DNA of 50,097 bases from Acidobacteriota bacterium. Lineage in GTDB: Bacteria > Acidobacteriota > Terriglobia > Acidiferrales > UBA7541. The stretch is taken from positions 133,303-183,399 of the forward strand of contig QHYS01000017.1 of assembly GCA_003223325.1 (NCBI GenBank), in the 5' to 3' direction. How positions within the stretch are numbered: the stretch's first letter is position 1; the number at the start of each line of letters is the position of its first letter. The notes beneath the pieces were generated by a model that was not told where the DNA came from, did no database searches, and saw only the letters and a list, made by a program, of their open reading frames with translations. This document shows, in pieces, positions 28,852 to 36,458 of the stretch. The position numbers and the translations under genes were made by a program.

Positions 28852-29985
28852 ATGCGTATTCTTGGCATTGAATCCTCCTGCGATGAGACTGCGGCTTCGG
28901 TCGTTGCCGACGGCAGGGAGATCCTGTCGAACGTCGTCGCCTCGCAAGTCAGCGTGCACCAGAAGTACGGAGGGGTGGTACCGGAGCTGGCCTCGCGCGA
29001 GCACCTGCGGAGCATTGTTCCGGTTGTACGCGAAGCCCTAGATTGTGCAGGGCTGAACTTCAACGACATTGATGGTGTTGGAGTCACGTGTGGGCCAGGC
29101 CTGGTGGGCTCTCTGCTGGTCGGTTTGACCTACGGCAAAGTGGTAGCAGACGCTCTGGGCAAGCCCCTCATAGGAGTCAATCATCTCGAAGGTCATGTTC
29201 GCGCGGTATTCCTGGAGGCTTTTCGTGTGGACCGGAGGCCCTCGTTGCCGGCAGTTTGCCTTATCGTTTCGGGCGGGCACACTGTCTTGTACGAAGTCGC
29301 GGCGACGGGACCGCCTGAGCCGCTGTCTGCGGCGCTTCTGCGATATGGGAAGATCGGACAGACCCGGGATGATGCCGCCGGCGAAGCCTACGACAAGGTC
29401 GCAAAACTCCTAGCCTTGGGATATCCCGGCGGGCCCATCATTGATCGGCTAGCGACCCATGGTGCACAAAGCAGGCGTGCGCACGCAGAACACATCGATT
29501 TCTCGCCTACGAAGCTACGGGGAAATCCGTACGATTTCAGCTTCAGCGGCCTCAAGACGGCTGTCCTCTATTATCTTCGGGCGCACCCGGAATTACAGCC
29601 GGAAATCGAGGAGCGGCGGCGTGTCCTCGGTAGCGGCGAGCGCGGGGGCGACAAATTAGTTCCGCTATGTAGTCCGCAAACGTTAGGACTGCTCGTTGCC
29701 TTTCAGAAAAGAGTCGTAGCCGAATTAGCCAGGCGCACTCTCCAAGCGGCGGAGGAGATTGCGGCGCAAAGCATTCTGGTTTCCGGAGGCGTGGCCGCAA
29801 ACAATGAATTGCGGCATTCGTTCGAACGTGAAGCCGAACAGAGCGGTGTCCCAGTGTTCTTCCCCAGCCGCCAGCTTTCCACTGATAATGCCGCAATGAT
29901 TGCCGCCGCAGCTTATCCCAGACTGCTCTCGGGCCAGCGTGCCGGCTTGGATCTCAACGCGGAACCGGTCTTACCGCTGGCTTGA
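28852..29985 (+). CDS. tsaD: tRNA N6-adenosine threonylcarbamoyltransferase TsaD
   Basis: A 377-residue ASKHA-fold protein. Seen are RILGIESSCDETAASVV, the metal-binding VNHLEGHVRAVFLE (His-x3-His), LIVSGGHTVLYEV, GEAYDKVAKLLALGYPGGP, FSFSGLKTAV, SGGVAANNELR and the C-terminal STDNAAMIAAAAY. TsaD transfers the threonylcarbamoyl group to A37 of ANN-decoding tRNAs, in complex with TsaB and TsaE. A stretch of about 20 residues (EERRRVLGSGERGGDKL, roughly 250-270) is longer than in E. coli TsaD, which has 337 residues. tsaB lies 0.8 kb downstream beyond carD; tsaE is not in the window. Confidence 0.97.
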   Translation: MRILGIESSCDETAASVVADGREILSNVVASQVSVHQKYGGVVPELASREHLRSIVPVVREALDCAGLNFNDIDGVGVTCGPGLVGSLLVGLTYGKVVADALGKPLIGVNHLEGHVRAVFLEAFRVDRRPSLPAVCLIVSGGHTVLYEVAATGPPEPLSAALLRYGKIGQTRDDAAGEAYDKVAKLLALGYPGGPIIDRLATHGAQSRRAHAEHIDFSPTKLRGNPYDFSFSGLKTAVLYYLRAHPELQPEIEERRRVLGSGERGGDKLVPLCSPQTLGLLVAFQKRVVAELARRTLQAAEEIAAQSILVSGGVAANNELRHSFEREAEQSGVPVFFPSRQLSTDNAAMIAAAAYPRLLSGQRAGLDLNAEPVLPLA

Positions 29986-30092: not shown

Positions 30093-30623
30093 TCAGTCTG
30101 CGGCGCTGGCTTCGTCACCTGTAGGGGGCATACGCAAGCGCGCTTTTGCTAGCGACTTGATCAGCATTGTTTCCATAGTCTGAGGAGTGGAGTTGCGGGC
30201 AGTCGCGAGCTCGGTAACGAGAAGGTATTTCGCGCGTTCGAGCATCTTCTTTTCCCGAAACGAGAGCGGCTTACTGTGGCTCAAGGCCACGAGGCTCTTC
30301 AGAACTGCGGCCACTTCGATAAGCGATCCGGTTCGCATGCGCTCGGAATTTTCCTTGAAGCGATGTTTCCAGTCGTGGTGGGAATTGAATTTACCCTTTT
30401 CGAGATAACCGAGAACCTTGGACGTGTCACCGTTTCGAATGACTGGACGAAGGCCCACTGCCGCTGCGTTCGAGCGCGGAACCATGACTTTGAGAGAGTT
30501 GGAAGTGATTCGCAACATGTAGTAGGTTTCGGTTCGGCCATCTAGCATCCCGTAGCTAATTTGTTCAATGACGCCCACACCGTGATTTGGATACACTACC
30601 TTGTCGCCGATTTTGAATTCCAT
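30093..30623 (-). CDS. carD: CarD-family transcriptional regulator
   Basis: The start is the ATG at 30623 (MEFKIGDKVVYPNHGVGVIEQIS), supported by the SD AGGGGGA and by a good promoter just upstream; an extension to 30671 would run through that promoter. The 176-residue protein has an N-terminal RNA-polymerase-interacting (Tudor-like) domain (1-60) and a helical C-terminal domain with WKHRFKENSERMRTGSLIEVAAVLKSLVAL and LSFREKKMLERAKYLLVTELA. CarD stabilises open complexes at many promoters, including rRNA promoters, through the RNA polymerase beta subunit. It is a single gene on the minus strand, inserted between tsaD and tsaB. Confidence 0.95.
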   Translation of the reverse strand: MEFKIGDKVVYPNHGVGVIEQISYGMLDGRTETYYMLRITSNSLKVMVPRSNAAAVGLRPVIRNGDTSKVLGYLEKGKFNSHHDWKHRFKENSERMRTGSLIEVAAVLKSLVALSHSKPLSFREKKMLERAKYLLVTELATARNSTPQTMETMLIKSLAKARLRMPPTGDEASAAD

Positions 30624-30660
30624 GGCAGGAGTTCCCCCTAAGGCAAAGCACGATGCACTC

Positions 30661-30690
30661 ATTTTAGGCAATTCTTGTATGTACAGTCAA
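30661..30690 (-). promoter_or_regulatory. Sigma-70 promoter of carD
   Basis: On the minus strand TTGACT (30690-30685) and TAAAAT (30666-30661) are separated by 18 nt. Transcription would start near 30654, giving a leader of about 30 nt with the SD AGGGGGA before the carD ATG at 30623. Confidence 0.6.
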
Positions 30691-30816: not shown

Positions 30817-31533
30817 ATGCTGATTTTGGCCGTGGACACCAGCTCAGCCGCGGGAAGCCTCGCCCTGCTGAGCGATACGGCAATTCTGGCGCATCGAGTA
30901 ACCTCGGGGGAAGAACCATACTCCGAGGGCCTTTTGCGGGAAACGAAGGAATTGCTGGAGGGAGCGTGCATCTCGTTCGATCAGATTGACTTGTTTGCAG
31001 TCGATGCCGGTCCTGGTTCCTTTACGGGACTGCGAGTAGGTCTGACAACCGTGAAGGGCTGGGCCGAGATATGGGGGCGACCAGTAGCTGCAGTGAGCGG
31101 ACTAGAAGCGATTGCCACCCAGGTTGGGCGAATGGCTGAACCAGGTTCATTGGTAGCTGCCGTAATGGATGCGCGTCGGGGCGAAATCTTCGGGGGTTTG
31201 TTCCACCGGGGAAAGGAGGCTTCTGCAAGGCTGGATAGCCTTGGAGACGAAGTCGTGACCAGCGCACAGGAGTTCGTGCAATCGCTGCGACCACGCTTGT
31301 TAGGAGGCTGTGGATTGCTCATAGCATGCGTCCAACCGGAGGTAATCCGTCCTGCGACCGAGGGACAGGATATTGGTTGTTGCCGAATTGAGGTGGTATC
31401 TAGTGTGCTCGCGCCGTTCATTGGCCAGCTCGGGTACGTTAAGGCGCTTCGCGGCGACGTGGTGGACGCATTGCGTCTCGACGCAAACTACATCCGGCGT
31501 TCCGATGCTGAAATGAACTGGAAAGGTGTCTGA
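30817..31533 (+). CDS. tsaB: tRNA threonylcarbamoyladenosine biosynthesis protein TsaB
   Basis: A 238-residue ASKHA-fold protein lacking the metal-binding histidines of TsaD, as expected for TsaB. Recognised: MLILAVDTSSAAGSLALL, SEGLLRETKELLEGA, DLFAVDAGPGSFTGLRVGLTTVKGWAEI (the family hallmark), AVSGLEAIA and VMDARRGEIFGGLF. TsaB is the scaffold partner of TsaD in t6A synthesis. rimI follows 30-40 nt downstream, the classical tsaB-rimI pair. The C-terminal part ends in ALRLDANYIRRSDAEMNWKG, typical of the family. Confidence 0.95.
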   Translation: MLILAVDTSSAAGSLALLSDTAILAHRVTSGEEPYSEGLLRETKELLEGACISFDQIDLFAVDAGPGSFTGLRVGLTTVKGWAEIWGRPVAAVSGLEAIATQVGRMAEPGSLVAAVMDARRGEIFGGLFHRGKEASARLDSLGDEVVTSAQEFVQSLRPRLLGGCGLLIACVQPEVIRPATEGQDIGCCRIEVVSSVLAPFIGQLGYVKALRGDVVDALRLDANYIRRSDAEMNWKGV

Positions 31534-31572
31534 ATTCCGGGTCTGAACATTCTGGCAGGCTTCTTGCGAACG

Positions 31573-32007
31573 ATGATTCGTGACTTCGACCCACGTGATC
31601 TCGAAAGCATCCAGAAGCTGATATCGAGTATTCCCGAGGTTGCTCAGTGGTCTGCCGATGATTTCCTACTGGCCTCACAGAGGAATTTCTGTTTGCGGGT
31701 GACAGAAGAAGGGGATACTGTTTCTGGGCTCGTTGCTTTTCGAATGATAAAGGACGAGGCAGAGATTCTAAACCTAGCCGTCGACTCCAGCCACCGCCGC
31801 CGGGGAATTGGCTCGCGACTGGTGGAGGGAACGATCGAGGCGTGCAAAGCCGCAGGAGTCAAGAAGATTTTTCTGGAAGTTCGGGAGTCCAATATCGGAG
31901 CGCGCAATTTCTACTCGCGAATGGGATTTACGGAGGCAGGGCGGCGTGGGCGGTATTATCGGCAGCCGGTTGAGGATGCGCTGGTGTTGGTACGTAAGGT
32001 TGAATAG
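31573..32007 (+). CDS. rimI: Ribosomal-protein-alanine N-acetyltransferase RimI-like (GNAT)
   Basis: ATG 31573 gives MIRDFDPRDLESIQKL; TTG 31564 is an alternative three codons upstream. It is a compact GNAT-fold protein of about 144 residues: a central strand VSGLVAFRMIKDEAEILNLAVDSSHRRRGIGSRLVEGTI with the acetyl-CoA-binding RRRGIG loop, and the C-terminal FLEVRESNIGARNFYSRMGFTEAGRRGRYYR typical of RimI. In E. coli RimI acetylates the N-terminal alanine of ribosomal protein S18. Its position directly after tsaB supports the call; GNAT substrate specificity cannot be proven from sequence alone. Confidence 0.9.
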   Translation: MIRDFDPRDLESIQKLISSIPEVAQWSADDFLLASQRNFCLRVTEEGDTVSGLVAFRMIKDEAEILNLAVDSSHRRRGIGSRLVEGTIEACKAAGVKKIFLEVRESNIGARNFYSRMGFTEAGRRGRYYRQPVEDALVLVRKVE

Positions 32008-32403: not shown

Positions 32404-33015
32404 ATGGTCAGAGACGGCTACAAGTTTGTTCTGCCGGCCCTTTGCGCGGGGATCGTCGCGCTCGCTCTCGGCTGGAAGGTTACGGCCGGACTGCTGTTAT
32501 TATTTTGCGCTGGGTTAGTTTTCTTCTTCCGCGACCCCGAGCGATTGCCTCCCGCCGATGCGGGAGTGGTCGTTTCACCGGCAGACGGCCGGATTATGGA
32601 GATAAGGGAGGAGGTTTTGGAGGGCCGTCCAGGTCTGCGAATCAGCATTTTTTTGTCTATCTGGGATGTCCACGTGAACCGGTCGCCCATGGCCGGACGC
32701 TTTCGAGAGGTGGAATATCGGCCCGGACGTTTCTACAACGCCATGCGCTCTCGCGCGTCCGTTGAGAACGAACAAAACATAATTCACTTGCAAACCGAGC
32801 GAGGGGAGATGGTTTTCAAGCAGATTGCCGGCGCCATCGCAAGGCGGGTGGTTTGCTGGAAAGCACCCGGCGACACCGTAAAATTAGGGGAACGAATCGG
32901 GCTCATCCGGTTCGGTTCACGCATGGATGTTTGGGTCCCGCAGGATACCGAAATCCTTACGCGTCTTGGCCAGCACGTCTCGGGAGGGGTCAGCGTGCTG
33001 GCGCGATGGCGATGA
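32404..33015 (+). CDS. psd: Phosphatidylserine decarboxylase, short form
   Basis: A 203-residue proenzyme of the short (archaeal/Bacteroidetes-like) type. Two hydrophobic segments near the N terminus (about 8-40) anchor it in the membrane. FFFRDPERLPP, VVSPADGRI, ISIFLSIWDVHVNRSP, the NEQN segment and IAGAIARRVVCW are family landmarks. The self-cleavage site that creates the pyruvoyl group is Gly171-Ser172 in RFGSRMDV. It converts phosphatidylserine to phosphatidylethanolamine. It overlaps pssA by 10 nt, so the two steps of PE synthesis are translated together. Confidence 0.95.
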   Translation: MVRDGYKFVLPALCAGIVALALGWKVTAGLLLLFCAGLVFFFRDPERLPPADAGVVVSPADGRIMEIREEVLEGRPGLRISIFLSIWDVHVNRSPMAGRFREVEYRPGRFYNAMRSRASVENEQNIIHLQTERGEMVFKQIAGAIARRVVCWKAPGDTVKLGERIGLIRFGSRMDVWVPQDTEILTRLGQHVSGGVSVLARWR

Positions 33016-33830
33016 GAGAGCCGGACCAGCAAGAATTCGGATTTATCGAGCCGCGGAATCATCGGCTGAGACGTGGCGTTTATCTCCTGCCCAGCGCATT
33101 TACCATCGGCAATCTTCTGTGCGGCTTTTATGCTGTCCTGGCAACTGTGAAGGGCGGAATTGTCGACCTGGATTATGCGGCGCGGGCTATTGGTTTCGCC
33201 ATCGTCTTTGATGCTTTCGACGGCTTTGTTGCGCGGGCCACACATACCAACACGGAATTCGGCAAACAATTTGATTCCTTGGCCGACATGGTCAGCTTTG
33301 GGATTGCGCCCGCGATTTTGGCCTACACCTGGGGAGTGCGCACCATTGCGCAGAGCGATATTCCCGAGGCGCGCCACATTTACGATCTGGCGTGGGTGGT
33401 GAGCCTGGCCTTCGTGTTATGTTGCGGCTGGCGACTGGCGCGCTTCAACGTGCACGGGATGGCACCGGCGGGCGGGCTGCGTTACTTCGTGGGCATGCCC
33501 TGCCCTGCGGCTGCGGGAATGATCGCGGCGACGGTACACGCCTGGAAAATACCCATCGAGGATTGGCGTTGGTCCGCAGTCTGGCTGATGCTGGTTCTGC
33601 TGCTCGCCGCACTCATGGTGAGTACGATCCGCTACGCCAGTTTCAAAGGGATTCCCTGGGGCAGGCGTCAGCATTCGCTGATCATCGTTGCGGTAGGCTT
33701 GTTGGTGTGGTCGGTTGTGGTCTATTCGGAGATCGTCTTGCTGCTGATCGCCGCCAGTTACACGGTAGGGGGCCTCACGATACACGTTGTACGCCTCGTT
33801 CGTCATCGTTTGGTCTCCCGCACTGCCTAA
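33006..33830 (+). CDS. pssA: CDP-diacylglycerol-serine O-phosphatidyltransferase
   Basis: ATG 33006 (or 33012) lies inside the end of psd; the frame is open far upstream but that part is antisense-like noise. The 274-residue integral membrane protein has about eight hydrophobic segments. The CDP-alcohol phosphotransferase motif D-G-x2-A-R-x8-G-x3-D-x3-D reads DGFVARATHTNTEFGKQFDSLAD followed by MVSFGIAP (about 76-106). It forms phosphatidylserine from CDP-diacylglycerol and serine, the substrate for the psd product. The Asd-like gene begins 3 nt after its stop. Confidence 0.95.
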   Translation: MAMREPDQQEFGFIEPRNHRLRRGVYLLPSAFTIGNLLCGFYAVLATVKGGIVDLDYAARAIGFAIVFDAFDGFVARATHTNTEFGKQFDSLADMVSFGIAPAILAYTWGVRTIAQSDIPEARHIYDLAWVVSLAFVLCCGWRLARFNVHGMAPAGGLRYFVGMPCPAAAGMIAATVHAWKIPIEDWRWSAVWLMLVLLLAALMVSTIRYASFKGIPWGRRQHSLIIVAVGLLVWSVVVYSEIVLLLIAASYTVGGLTIHVVRLVRHRLVSRTA

Positions 33831-33833
33831 TCG

Positions 33834-34859
33834 ATGCCGCTACCTGAGCACGCGATGCGGGTGGCTATCGCCGGAGCCACCTCGCTACGCGGCAAAGATC
33901 TGAAAGATTGGCTTGAGGAGGGCGGCTTTCCCGCAGTGGAAATCAGGCTGGTAGATGAAGAGCTAGCTTCAGGGACGCTGACCGAGGTGGCAGGCGAGCC
34001 CGCCATCGTCCAGAACGTCACCGAGAGCAGCTTCGAGGGATTGCGGTTCGTCTTTTTCACCGGATCGGCCGCGTTTACAGCCCAACACGGCCCCGCCGCG
34101 GACAGAGCCGGCGCTTCGGTAATTGATATGACTGGAGGTTTGTGGGCCGGCTCGCACGCACGACCCTGGATACCTCGGCTGGACGCGCTGATCTCTCCTC
34201 CCGCACCTTCCGCTCTACCAAACGATCATTATCACACCTGGGTGGCCCCTTCGACACCAGCCATCCTAGCCTGTTCGTTGGCAGCGGCTTTTGCAGAGCT
34301 TTCTCCGGTTCGCCTTGTGATCGTATTCTTTCAGCCTGTCTCTGAACGGGGGGAAGAGGGCATCACCGAATTGGAAGGACAAACCATCAAGCTGCTCTCC
34401 TTTCAACCGATTCCGCAGCTCGTTTTCGATACTCAGGTAGCCTTTAACCTAGCCGATCGGTGGGGCGCGGGCAGCGCACAAAAGCTCTCCGATGCGCGGA
34501 TGGCCATTGCCCGCGAGGTACAACGATATCTCGCAGACCGCATCTCATTACCTGCTGTGACGCTCGTGCAGGCACCCGTGTTTTATGGACATGCCTTTGC
34601 GGCTTGGGCCGAGTTCAACAATCCCGAGAGCGAAGAAAGGCTAACCACCAAACTGAAGAGCGCGGGATTTAAAGTCATACCGCCAGAGGAAGCGAGCCCG
34701 TCAAATCTGACTGCTGCCGGCGAGACGCAGCCGATGATCACCGTACCCGAGCGCGACGGCAACGTTGCCCACGGGTATTGGTTCTGGGGCGCGGCGGACA
34801 ATTTTCGGGTGGCCAGTGTGAATGCGACTCAGATTGCAGAGAGGCTCCTTGCGTCGTAA
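33834..34859 (+). CDS. Aspartate-semialdehyde-dehydrogenase-like protein without catalytic Cys (Usg-like)
   Basis: A 341-residue protein with the ASADH fold: N-terminal Rossmann start MRVAIAGATSLRGKDLKDWL (about 8-27), ASVIDMTGGL, the dimerisation-domain segments FFQPVSERGEEGITELEGQT and APVFYGHAFAAWAEF. Where true ASADH has the catalytic Cys in an (N)PNCST segment, this protein reads WVAPSTPAIL, so the nucleophile is replaced by Pro. The GATGxVG nucleotide motif is also altered (GATSLRG). It cannot be a normal ASADH and resembles E. coli Usg-1, a non-catalytic Asd relative. It sits in a phospholipid/LPS operon between pssA and lptE, so a structural or regulatory role is possible. ATG 33855 is an alternative start. 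Confidence 0.8.
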   Translation: MPLPEHAMRVAIAGATSLRGKDLKDWLEEGGFPAVEIRLVDEELASGTLTEVAGEPAIVQNVTESSFEGLRFVFFTGSAAFTAQHGPAADRAGASVIDMTGGLWAGSHARPWIPRLDALISPPAPSALPNDHYHTWVAPSTPAILACSLAAAFAELSPVRLVIVFFQPVSERGEEGITELEGQTIKLLSFQPIPQLVFDTQVAFNLADRWGAGSAQKLSDARMAIAREVQRYLADRISLPAVTLVQAPVFYGHAFAAWAEFNNPESEERLTTKLKSAGFKVIPPEEASPSNLTAAGETQPMITVPERDGNVAHGYWFWGAADNFRVASVNATQIAERLLAS

Positions 34860-35385
34860 CCGGAGTTCCCGCTTCGCAGCGATTCCCTGCACGCTGGCGG
34901 CTGTTCTAGCTGCGAGCGGCTGCGGCTATCACGTTGTGGGACGCGTGAACGCTCTTCCCGAAGGAGCTCGCAGCATCGCCATACCAGCGTTTGTTAATCG
35001 AACTACGCAGTATCGAATCGAGCAGATCCTCACGCAAGCCGTGGTGCACGAGTTCATCGCCCGAACGAAGTACCGAGTTGTGCCTGAAGCCGATGGCGCC
35101 GACCTGGTGCTTCAAGGAGAAGTGACCAACATCGCGAGTGGCGCGGTGCTCTTCGACCCCACAACGGGCCGGGCAACTACGGTGCTGGTGACGGTCAACC
35201 TCCGAATTGCATTGCAGGATCGCGCGGGAAAGATCTTGTACCAGAATGCTAATTTTGTGTTCCGCGAACCGTATGAAATCTCCGTGGATATCTCCTCATT
35301 TTTTCAGGAAGAAGGTCCGGCCCTCGGTCGGATGTCGAGGGATTTCGCGGGACAAGTCGTATCTGAGATACTCGAGAAGTTCTGA
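34849..35385 (+). CDS. lptE: LPS-assembly lipoprotein LptE-like
   Basis: TTG 34849 has the SD AGAGG and gives a compact lipoprotein signal; ATG 34822 in the same frame is an alternative with a longer basic N terminus. The lipobox LAASGC is followed by GYHVVGRVNALPEGARSIAIPAFVNRTTQYRIEQILTQAVVHEFI, the typical LptE opening, then DADLVLQGEVTNIASGAV-like strands and a C-terminal FFQEEGPALGRMSRDFAGQVVSEIL helix. LptE plugs LptD and helps deliver LPS to the outer leaflet. It overlaps the Asd-like gene by about 11 nt and holA by 1 nt (TGATG). Confidence 0.9.
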   Translation: MRRNRSSRFAAIPCTLAAVLAASGCGYHVVGRVNALPEGARSIAIPAFVNRTTQYRIEQILTQAVVHEFIARTKYRVVPEADGADLVLQGEVTNIASGAVLFDPTTGRATTVLVTVNLRIALQDRAGKILYQNANFVFREPYEISVDISSFFQEEGPALGRMSRDFAGQVVSEILEKF

Positions 35386-36458
35386 TGCCTAAAATTTCCG
35401 CTGAATCCCTCATCACGCAGCTAATAAAAAGTAAGGCGGGGCCCTCGCTGTTGTTTCTCGGAAGGGACGCGTATCTGCGGGATGTTTTGCGTGAGCGAGT
35501 GATTGAGGCGTCGATCGAACCGGCGGCAAGAAGCTGGGCGATATCACGCTACTCGGCAGAACAGGGGGAATTTGCCGCCGCGTTGGCGCAGGCCCGAACG
35601 GTACCCATGCTGGCCCGCCGCCAAGTTGTAATCGTGACTGAAGTCGAGGAACTCGAGCGGACGTCCGAGGAAAAGCGAGAAGCTGAAACACGGAGCCTCG
35701 CTGAATATTTCGCGGATCCTGCCCCTTTTACAGTCCTGATTTTCGAAGCAAAAGAACTGGATCAGCGGACGCGGTTTGCCAAAATGCTGCAGGAACAGAT
35801 GCTGGTTGTGGTGGCACAGCTTCCCGAAGATCCGCGAGAGCGCGCACGCACCGCCGGGATGCTGGCCGGACAGATGGCACGCCATCGTGATTCTGCAATT
35901 GAGGATGATGCCGCGGATGAACTGGCGGATCTCTGCAATTGCGACCTTGCCGCCATGCAGAGTGAGATTGAGAAGCTGGCGACTTACGTGGGGGCTGGGC
36001 GGCCTATCCAACGCGCAGACGTCGAGGCTCTGGTCGTTTCGGAGAAGAAACACTCGGTTTGGGAGCTTGCCGAAGTATTGGCCACGGGCCAGCGTGCGCG
36101 TGCATTCCTTTTCTTAGCCAATGTTCTGCAACAGGGAGAACCGGCGCCGGCGCTGATTGGCGCAATGGCCTGGATGTATCGAAAGCTGATGGAGGCTCAA
36201 CAGCTGAGCCCGCACACCTCTTCGTATCAGGCTGCAGGGCGTCTGGGGATGCGCGTGGCGACAGCGGAGATGGCGATCCGGCACGCAAGGAAAATCCCTC
36301 GGCAGCGGCTCGTGGACGGTTTGCGGGCGCTATACGACGCAGACAGCACACTCAAAGCGGGCTCAACGCATGATCGTGCGGTCATGGAGTTTGTTGTCGC
36401 ACAGCTTACAGCCTCGTACTCAAAGCACCGTGCGAACCGAGAAACGCGCCCAAGTTAG
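35385..36458 (+). CDS. holA: DNA polymerase III subunit delta
   Basis: A 357-residue clamp-loader subunit of the HolA family. It has an N-terminal AAA+-like domain without a Walker A motif (LLFLGRDAYLRDVLRERVIE, VPMLARRQVVIVTEVEEL), a middle lid domain (ADELADLCNCDLAAMQSEIEKLATYVG) and the C-terminal collar helices (SVWELAEVLATGQRARAFLFLANVLQQGEPAPALIGAMAWMYRKLM). The delta subunit opens the beta clamp. Linkage lptE-holA is common in many bacteria. The 1-nt overlap with lptE indicates coupling. It converges with rpsT 21 bp downstream. Confidence 0.93.
   Translation: MPKISAESLITQLIKSKAGPSLLFLGRDAYLRDVLRERVIEASIEPAARSWAISRYSAEQGEFAAALAQARTVPMLARRQVVIVTEVEELERTSEEKREAETRSLAEYFADPAPFTVLIFEAKELDQRTRFAKMLQEQMLVVVAQLPEDPRERARTAGMLAGQMARHRDSAIEDDAADELADLCNCDLAAMQSEIEKLATYVGAGRPIQRADVEALVVSEKKHSVWELAEVLATGQRARAFLFLANVLQQGEPAPALIGAMAWMYRKLMEAQQLSPHTSSYQAAGRLGMRVATAEMAIRHARKIPRQRLVDGLRALYDADSTLKAGSTHDRAVMEFVVAQLTASYSKHRANRETRPS

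Follow-up and report, generated by a model that had tools for sequence, protein, structure and literature searches.

A predicted non-catalytic relative of aspartate-semialdehyde dehydrogenase encoded behind phosphatidylethanolamine synthesis genes in Acidobacteriota

Results

The locus and its genes

The window analysed here is a 50,097-nt stretch of an Acidobacteriota contig (QHYS01000017.1:133,303-183,399, forward strand) from an assembly of 6.1 Mb in 377 contigs, and all coordinates below are window positions. At 33,834–34,859 on the plus strand it carries a gene for a protein of 341 amino acids, plus stop, which has the ASADH fold without the ASADH catalytic residues, as judged from the open reading frame, domain matches, alignments and a structural model. 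The gene is real, and its frame has exactly the limits given in the first-pass annotation. The protein matches both Semialdhyde_dh domains above the cut-off (PF02774, 1e-13; PF01118, 7.5e-8), and we use the name ASDL for homologues of this type.

The gene belongs to the string tsaB–GNAT–psd–pssA–ASDL–lptE–holA, in which all members lie on the plus strand. Two genes named by reading, tsaB-like (30,817–31,533) and a GNAT-like acetyltransferase gene (31,564–32,007), are part of the conserved gene order. They are followed by psd, of the phosphatidylserine decarboxylase family (32,404–33,015; NF003678, 225.8 bits against a cut-off of 225), and by pssA, encoding CDP-diacylglycerol-serine phosphatidyltransferase (33,006–33,830, with the start chosen at 33,006; TIGR00473, 109.4 bits against a cut-off of 107). 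Downstream are an lptE-like gene (34,822–35,385; PF04390, 1.2e-14) and holA (35,385–36,458; TIGR01128, 180.2 bits against a cut-off of 80). ASDL begins 3 bases behind pssA and shares its last 38 bases with the lptE frame, in agreement with the tight packing between pssA and lptE that had been described. Further upstream, 28,852–29,985 reads as tsaD, less than 2 kb from the tsaB-like gene (both tRNA t6A genes), and between these two a CarD-like gene was recognized by reading on the minus strand (30,093–30,671).

The closest relatives with names are soil metagenome-assembled genomes (MAGs) titled Acidobacteria gp2, Candidatus Acidiferrales or Terriglobia, and the window protein is 85 and 89% identical to proteins of two gp2 MAGs. 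The source assembly also encodes a true Asd on another contig, of E. coli type with the GGNCTVSL motif intact, and a further contig carries a gene that reads as argC, followed by what reads as argB. No ArgC model was found among the NCBIfam matches of the window protein.

Loss of catalytic and nucleotide-binding residues

Residues were compared in a joint alignment of 116 ASDL rows with 15 true Asd and 3 Usg rows. The ASDL rows comprise 75 from a locus set that includes the window, after removal of five true Asd and of one stretch that gave no match, and 41 of 76 named loci; nine are near-copies, and the remaining 107 give the same picture. Judged by these sequences, ASDL is predicted to have lost ASADH chemistry. 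Cysteine occupies the nucleophile column in none of the 116 ASDL rows, compared with 15 of 15 Asd, and is replaced by P (65 rows), A (31), T (11), S (6), G (2) or V (1). Within the window's own family the site varies among S, P, A and G; most relatives have a His-Pro pair at the Asn-Cys site. In the window protein the former Asn-Cys site is represented by P139-S140-T141-P142 (34,248–34,259, plus strand), where the exact mapping depends on the alignment: a gap-free alignment equates P139 with Asn and S140 with Cys, the joint alignment places Asn at S140 and Cys at T141, and two other alignments open a gap there. The modelled helix starts at residue 141, that is, at the nucleophile position. The reported replacement of NC by AP therefore holds as to the missing cysteine, which no alignment supplies, and is slightly shifted as to the residues, with S140 or T141 at the nucleophile position.

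A substitute cysteine at the active site, which had been named as the observation that would overturn the pseudoenzyme reading, was rejected on sequence: besides the empty nucleophile column, the sole cysteine of the window protein, C147 (34,272–34,274, plus strand), lies within helix 141–156, as placed by sequence and secondary structure only, and is a cysteine in 29 of 116 ASDL rows only. One ASDL (L135:1224-2228) is ambiguous, the only such case; the cysteine of its SPCAAV motif falls in the nucleophile column in one alignment and one column earlier in the joint alignment, resembling P. aeruginosa USG-1, in which a cysteine adjoins the nucleophile position (SPCAVA).

Other functional positions have changed as well. 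The segment from Q246 to H253 (34,569–34,592, plus strand) aligns with the substrate Arg and the catalytic His of Asd, respectively. The Arg is present in 7 of 116 ASDL and 15 of 15 Asd, and its replacement by Q246 in the window had escaped the first-pass annotation; the substrate Lys of Asd is also lost. The nucleotide loop reads GATSLRGK (residues 14–21; 33,873–33,896, plus strand), with Asd having Gly at the position of residue 17. This middle Gly of the NADP loop GxxGxxG is found in 1 of 116 ASDL compared with 15 of 15 Asd, so that the altered nucleotide motif noticed earlier (GATSLRG rather than GATGxVG) is a feature of the family. The His column contains H in 39 of 116 rows, Y in 51 and other residues in the rest. 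H253 is present in the window, and the PVFYGH motif, cited as kept along with the rest of the fold, is indeed kept in the window's genus, as is the whole fold in the model; conservation of the His does not extend across the family. The window protein scores 86.2 bits against the asd_B model TIGR01296, far below the cut-off of 324.2 bits. Annotation by models points to aspartate-semialdehyde dehydrogenase, which the four positions tested (Cys, Arg, Lys and the Gly of the loop) show to be wrong.

Predicted fold, selection and residues particular to the family

AlphaFold2 predicted the whole ASADH fold from a 42-row alignment (pLDDT 84.8, pTM 0.86), with pLDDT below 50 at residues 1–3, 205–207 and 209–212. 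The top solved structure by Foldseek was V. cholerae Asd, whereas the top VIA-align match was 2hjs (Z 35.3, rmsd 2.6, 322 residues) with true Asd close behind (Z 34.3 and less). The maximum hydrophobicity of any 19-residue stretch was 1.73 and none was strongly hydrophobic, so ASDL is likely soluble.

The gene is under purifying selection. By the Nei-Gojobori method, dN/dS was 0.14 and 0.18 against two congeners, alongside 0.11–0.15 for psd, 0.06–0.08 for pssA, 0.09–0.18 for lptE and 0.21 for holA (one pair); nearly all ASDL matches are open frames with no inner stop. ASDL also has conserved residues of its own relative to Asd, among them L18, D41, L49, E55, P168, F190, F250 and W316 (96 to 116 of 116 rows each), with counts of 114 for P168, 109 for E55 and 108 for W316; E171 is found in 87 rows.

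According to the model and the alignment, D41 (33,954–33,956, plus strand) ends the second strand, and it is present in 96 of 116 ASDL and 2 of 15 Asd. An acidic residue at this position of a Rossmann fold generally goes with a preference for NAD rather than NADP. In the joint alignment ASDL also lacks the Arg found in the SxRS motif of Asd. Taken together, the two changes suggest that NADP is unlikely to be bound and that the ligand may be NAD-like. The pattern would fit a change of ligand, from NADP to something NAD-like or to another compound, although this is the least certain step of our reading.

Distribution and phylogeny

A one-sequence search matched 96 of 247 genomes of the phylum and a family profile matched 175 of 247. 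The latter is an upper bound because weaker matches mix divergent ASDL with true Asd or other semialdehyde dehydrogenases; 65 of the 175 genomes, counted by eye, score at least 319 bits, and the best true Asd seen scores 245 bits. At class level 281 of 299 genomes were matched, some of them by weak matches that are not ASDL, and 18 had no match. The gene is also present in the type strain of the culturable Acidipila rosea (L214). ASDL with the Acidobacteriota-type psd–pssA order was further observed in three MAGs titled Bacillota, Betaproteobacteria and Verrucomicrobia (L170, L191 and L210); these records are probably mistitled or derive from mixed bins.

In the tree, the 43 ASDL rows all fall on one side of a branch (support 100/99), and none of the true Asd tested lies among them. 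Their closest neighbour outside this group is P. aeruginosa USG-1 (96/96), and enterobacterial Usg grouped with V. cholerae Asd (89/98). The AU test rejected neither a single clade that unites ASDL and all Usg (p 0.295) nor a clade of all Usg (p 0.50), in a tree with three Usg rows, one of them of P. aeruginosa type, and long ASDL branches. We take ASDL to be an old lineage of proteins with the ASADH fold in Acidobacteriota, united in a single clade and new among Usg-like proteins. A search of the open PMC literature returned nothing on an ASADH-like pseudoenzyme of Acidobacteriota. A conceivable origin of ASDL would be an ancestral psd–pssA–leu–asd operon. Two of five true Asd loci adjoin lysine or threonine pathway genes, as seen by eye.

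Gene context across the family

In profile searches, 67 of 75 ASDL stretches had PssA immediately upstream and in the same orientation; for two of the remaining eight (L055 and L089) the upstream sequence is shorter than 500 bases. Of 70 named loci with enough sequence, 69 have PssA upstream, and Psd is found there in 67 of 67, with −28 to 80 bases between the PssA stop and the first aligned ASDL residue. This position is kept across many families at 25–35% identity. We also considered 16 genomes chosen for having no ASDL match in an earlier search, of which 15 have PssA, and found no ASDL beside the PssA loci fetched from them. Eight of the 16 have psd–pssA–lptE without ASDL, a natural empty site (seven loci of family f84, L240–L246, and L237 in genome G247). 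Conversely, of 10 genomes from the MsbA-type group and groups related to it, 6 have a PssA above the cut-off; it fell just under in G111 (101.8 of 107 bits), while G093, G194 and G146 have ASDL and weak PssA matches only. ASDL can thus disappear while pssA stays, and can persist where no PssA passes the cut-off, and both kinds of genome weaken the idea that it is an obligate PssA subunit.

Within a reach of 3.5 kb downstream, the 75 ASDL are followed by LptE (22), a LolCE-type permease (13) or an MsbA-like ABC transporter (6), so that export genes together account for 41 of 75 loci; 33 have none of these and one stretch is too short. The names LolCE, LolD and MsbA come from the best NCBIfam models (TIGR02212 lolCE, TIGR02211 LolD and TIGR02203 MsbA), all below their cut-offs. 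LptE is downstream in 51 of 69 named loci, but it comes after PssA with or without ASDL and is therefore not independent evidence. The first-pass annotation had tied ASDL equally to PssA, LptE and HolA. What the comparison retains is the tie to Psd–PssA, since LptE and HolA are missing downstream in many homologous loci. Neither PssA upstream nor LptE, a LolCE-type permease or an MsbA-like transporter downstream was found in any of five true Asd loci. One locus of the MsbA group (L052) retains psd–pssA in front of ASDL and so links the MsbA-type and psd–pssA arrangements, and two further loci of this group that were tested have a GT4-like glycosyltransferase in front, assigned by weak models.

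In several families a protein of about 280 amino acids with a signal-peptide-like start was seen by eye between ASDL and the LolCE-type permease (L054:4574-5407, L072:4711-5550, L057:6354-7190 and L087:6309-7130). Its members have a C-terminal part in common (GTW/GSLQGT, IDSxLGRS), with no NCBIfam match for two members scanned and no Pfam match for one.

Discussion

An inactive Asd relative found across the phylum, nearly always behind phosphatidylethanolamine (PE) genes, is probably kept for a different cell-envelope job. The first-pass annotation had proposed that a non-catalytic Asd was retained in an envelope operon for a new role; retention and the string of envelope-lipid genes are borne out, and the context suggests the new role. 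On the reading that we favour tentatively, and hold to be plausible, just short of probable, ASDL would take part in the biogenesis of phospholipids and the outer membrane as a partner that catalyses nothing itself and probably senses a ligand or serves as a scaffold. Closeness of genes does not prove that ASDL and psd–pssA have a common job.

We envisage ASDL as a soluble protein of the cytosol, probably a dimer, in which the remodelled pocket for nucleotide (Rossmann) and substrate would bind a ligand without turnover. As a regulator or scaffold it could tune PE supply and outer-membrane biogenesis, and production from the same transcript as PssA may help it to act on that supply. In a more specific version, ASDL would be a ligand-gated regulator or scaffold through which amino-acid or redox state acts on phosphatidylserine (PS) and PE synthesis and on outer-membrane export, with a ligand that, in view of Asp41, is perhaps of NAD(H) type. 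This is conceivable, though we would not expect it. If it were true, ASDL would represent a hitherto undescribed class of regulators of phospholipid synthesis. If gene context can be trusted here, much of the phylum has retained a dead metabolic enzyme that assists in PE synthesis and outer-membrane export.

The strong family-specific conservation of P168, E171, E55 and W316, together with purifying selection, would also suit an enzyme with new chemistry, its pocket rebuilt to act on a metabolite linked to PS/PE or envelope synthesis, for instance with the His-Pro pair at the Asn-Cys site or with E171, a neighbour of the former substrate Gln, as new catalytic residues. We consider this unlikely, as an enzyme using the old active site would hold its residues constant, and those of the nucleophile and His columns drift.

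It is likewise improbable that ASDL is a far branch of P. aeruginosa-type USG-1 with the same function. The two lie together on one side of a branch (96/96) and have Gln in place of the substrate Arg, and 2hjs is the top VIA-align match, with true Asd tied within about 2 Z. The best NCBIfam model of the window protein is NF004224/PRK05671; however, its score against this model (120.9 of 284 bits), like that against NF005957 (96.5 of 273), is far under the curated cut-off, both being what we take to be Usg-type models. Moreover, the nucleotide loop changed in ASDL is kept in 3 of 3 Usg rows, the neighbours differ (leuB–asd–usg–fimV–truA or pdxB–usg–truA–dedA against psd–pssA–ASDL), and a single row represented the P. 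aeruginosa type in the tree.

We regard as very unlikely that ASDL is an inactive partner that regulates true Asd through mixed dimers and lies behind pssA by accident. Its dimerisation domain (PF02774) is retained, and most genomes of the class have about three PF02774 proteins; but the true Asd encoded in the assembly belongs to the E. coli subfamily, whose solved members are about 13% identical to the ASDL model over the fold, which makes mixed dimers unlikely, and the place behind PssA is conserved at the low identities given above. Least credible is a relic under weak constraint, kept by its position between needed genes, which would suit the drifting active site and the clean absence of ASDL from f84 and G247 with neighbours intact but not the open frames, the family's own conserved residues or a dN/dS similar to that of the neighbours.

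The preferred reading, that of a non-catalytic envelope partner, is best set against known proteins of the same fold. AsdB-type ASADH (V. cholerae, 2qz9) is like ASDL in both domains, in overall fold and in the ELxxQ and AFN motifs, and has the Cys, Arg, Lys and loop Gly, all four of which ASDL is without. Enterobacterial Usg (E. coli, Proteus) belongs to the ASADH fold family and has Ser for Cys and Gln for Arg; unlike ASDL, it keeps the loop and the His and lies in a pdxB–usg–truA–dedA context. P. aeruginosa USG-1 (2hjs) is similar over the whole fold, lacks a Cys in the nucleophile column and has Gln for the substrate Arg, yet it retains the GATGxVG loop, occurs in the leuB–asd–usg–fimV–truA context and is 26–28% identical to ASDL. 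ASDL loci lack the truA-side context of Usg and have psd–pssA instead. The first-pass comparison with Usg-1 is thus upheld in that USG-1 is the nearest known relative, and the altered loop speaks against ASDL being simply Usg. We found no established molecular function for Usg in the open-access literature consulted (for example PMC6358828). Usg is nevertheless the right comparison for ASDL, and study of ASDL in a culturable relative could also illuminate the unexplained role of Usg.
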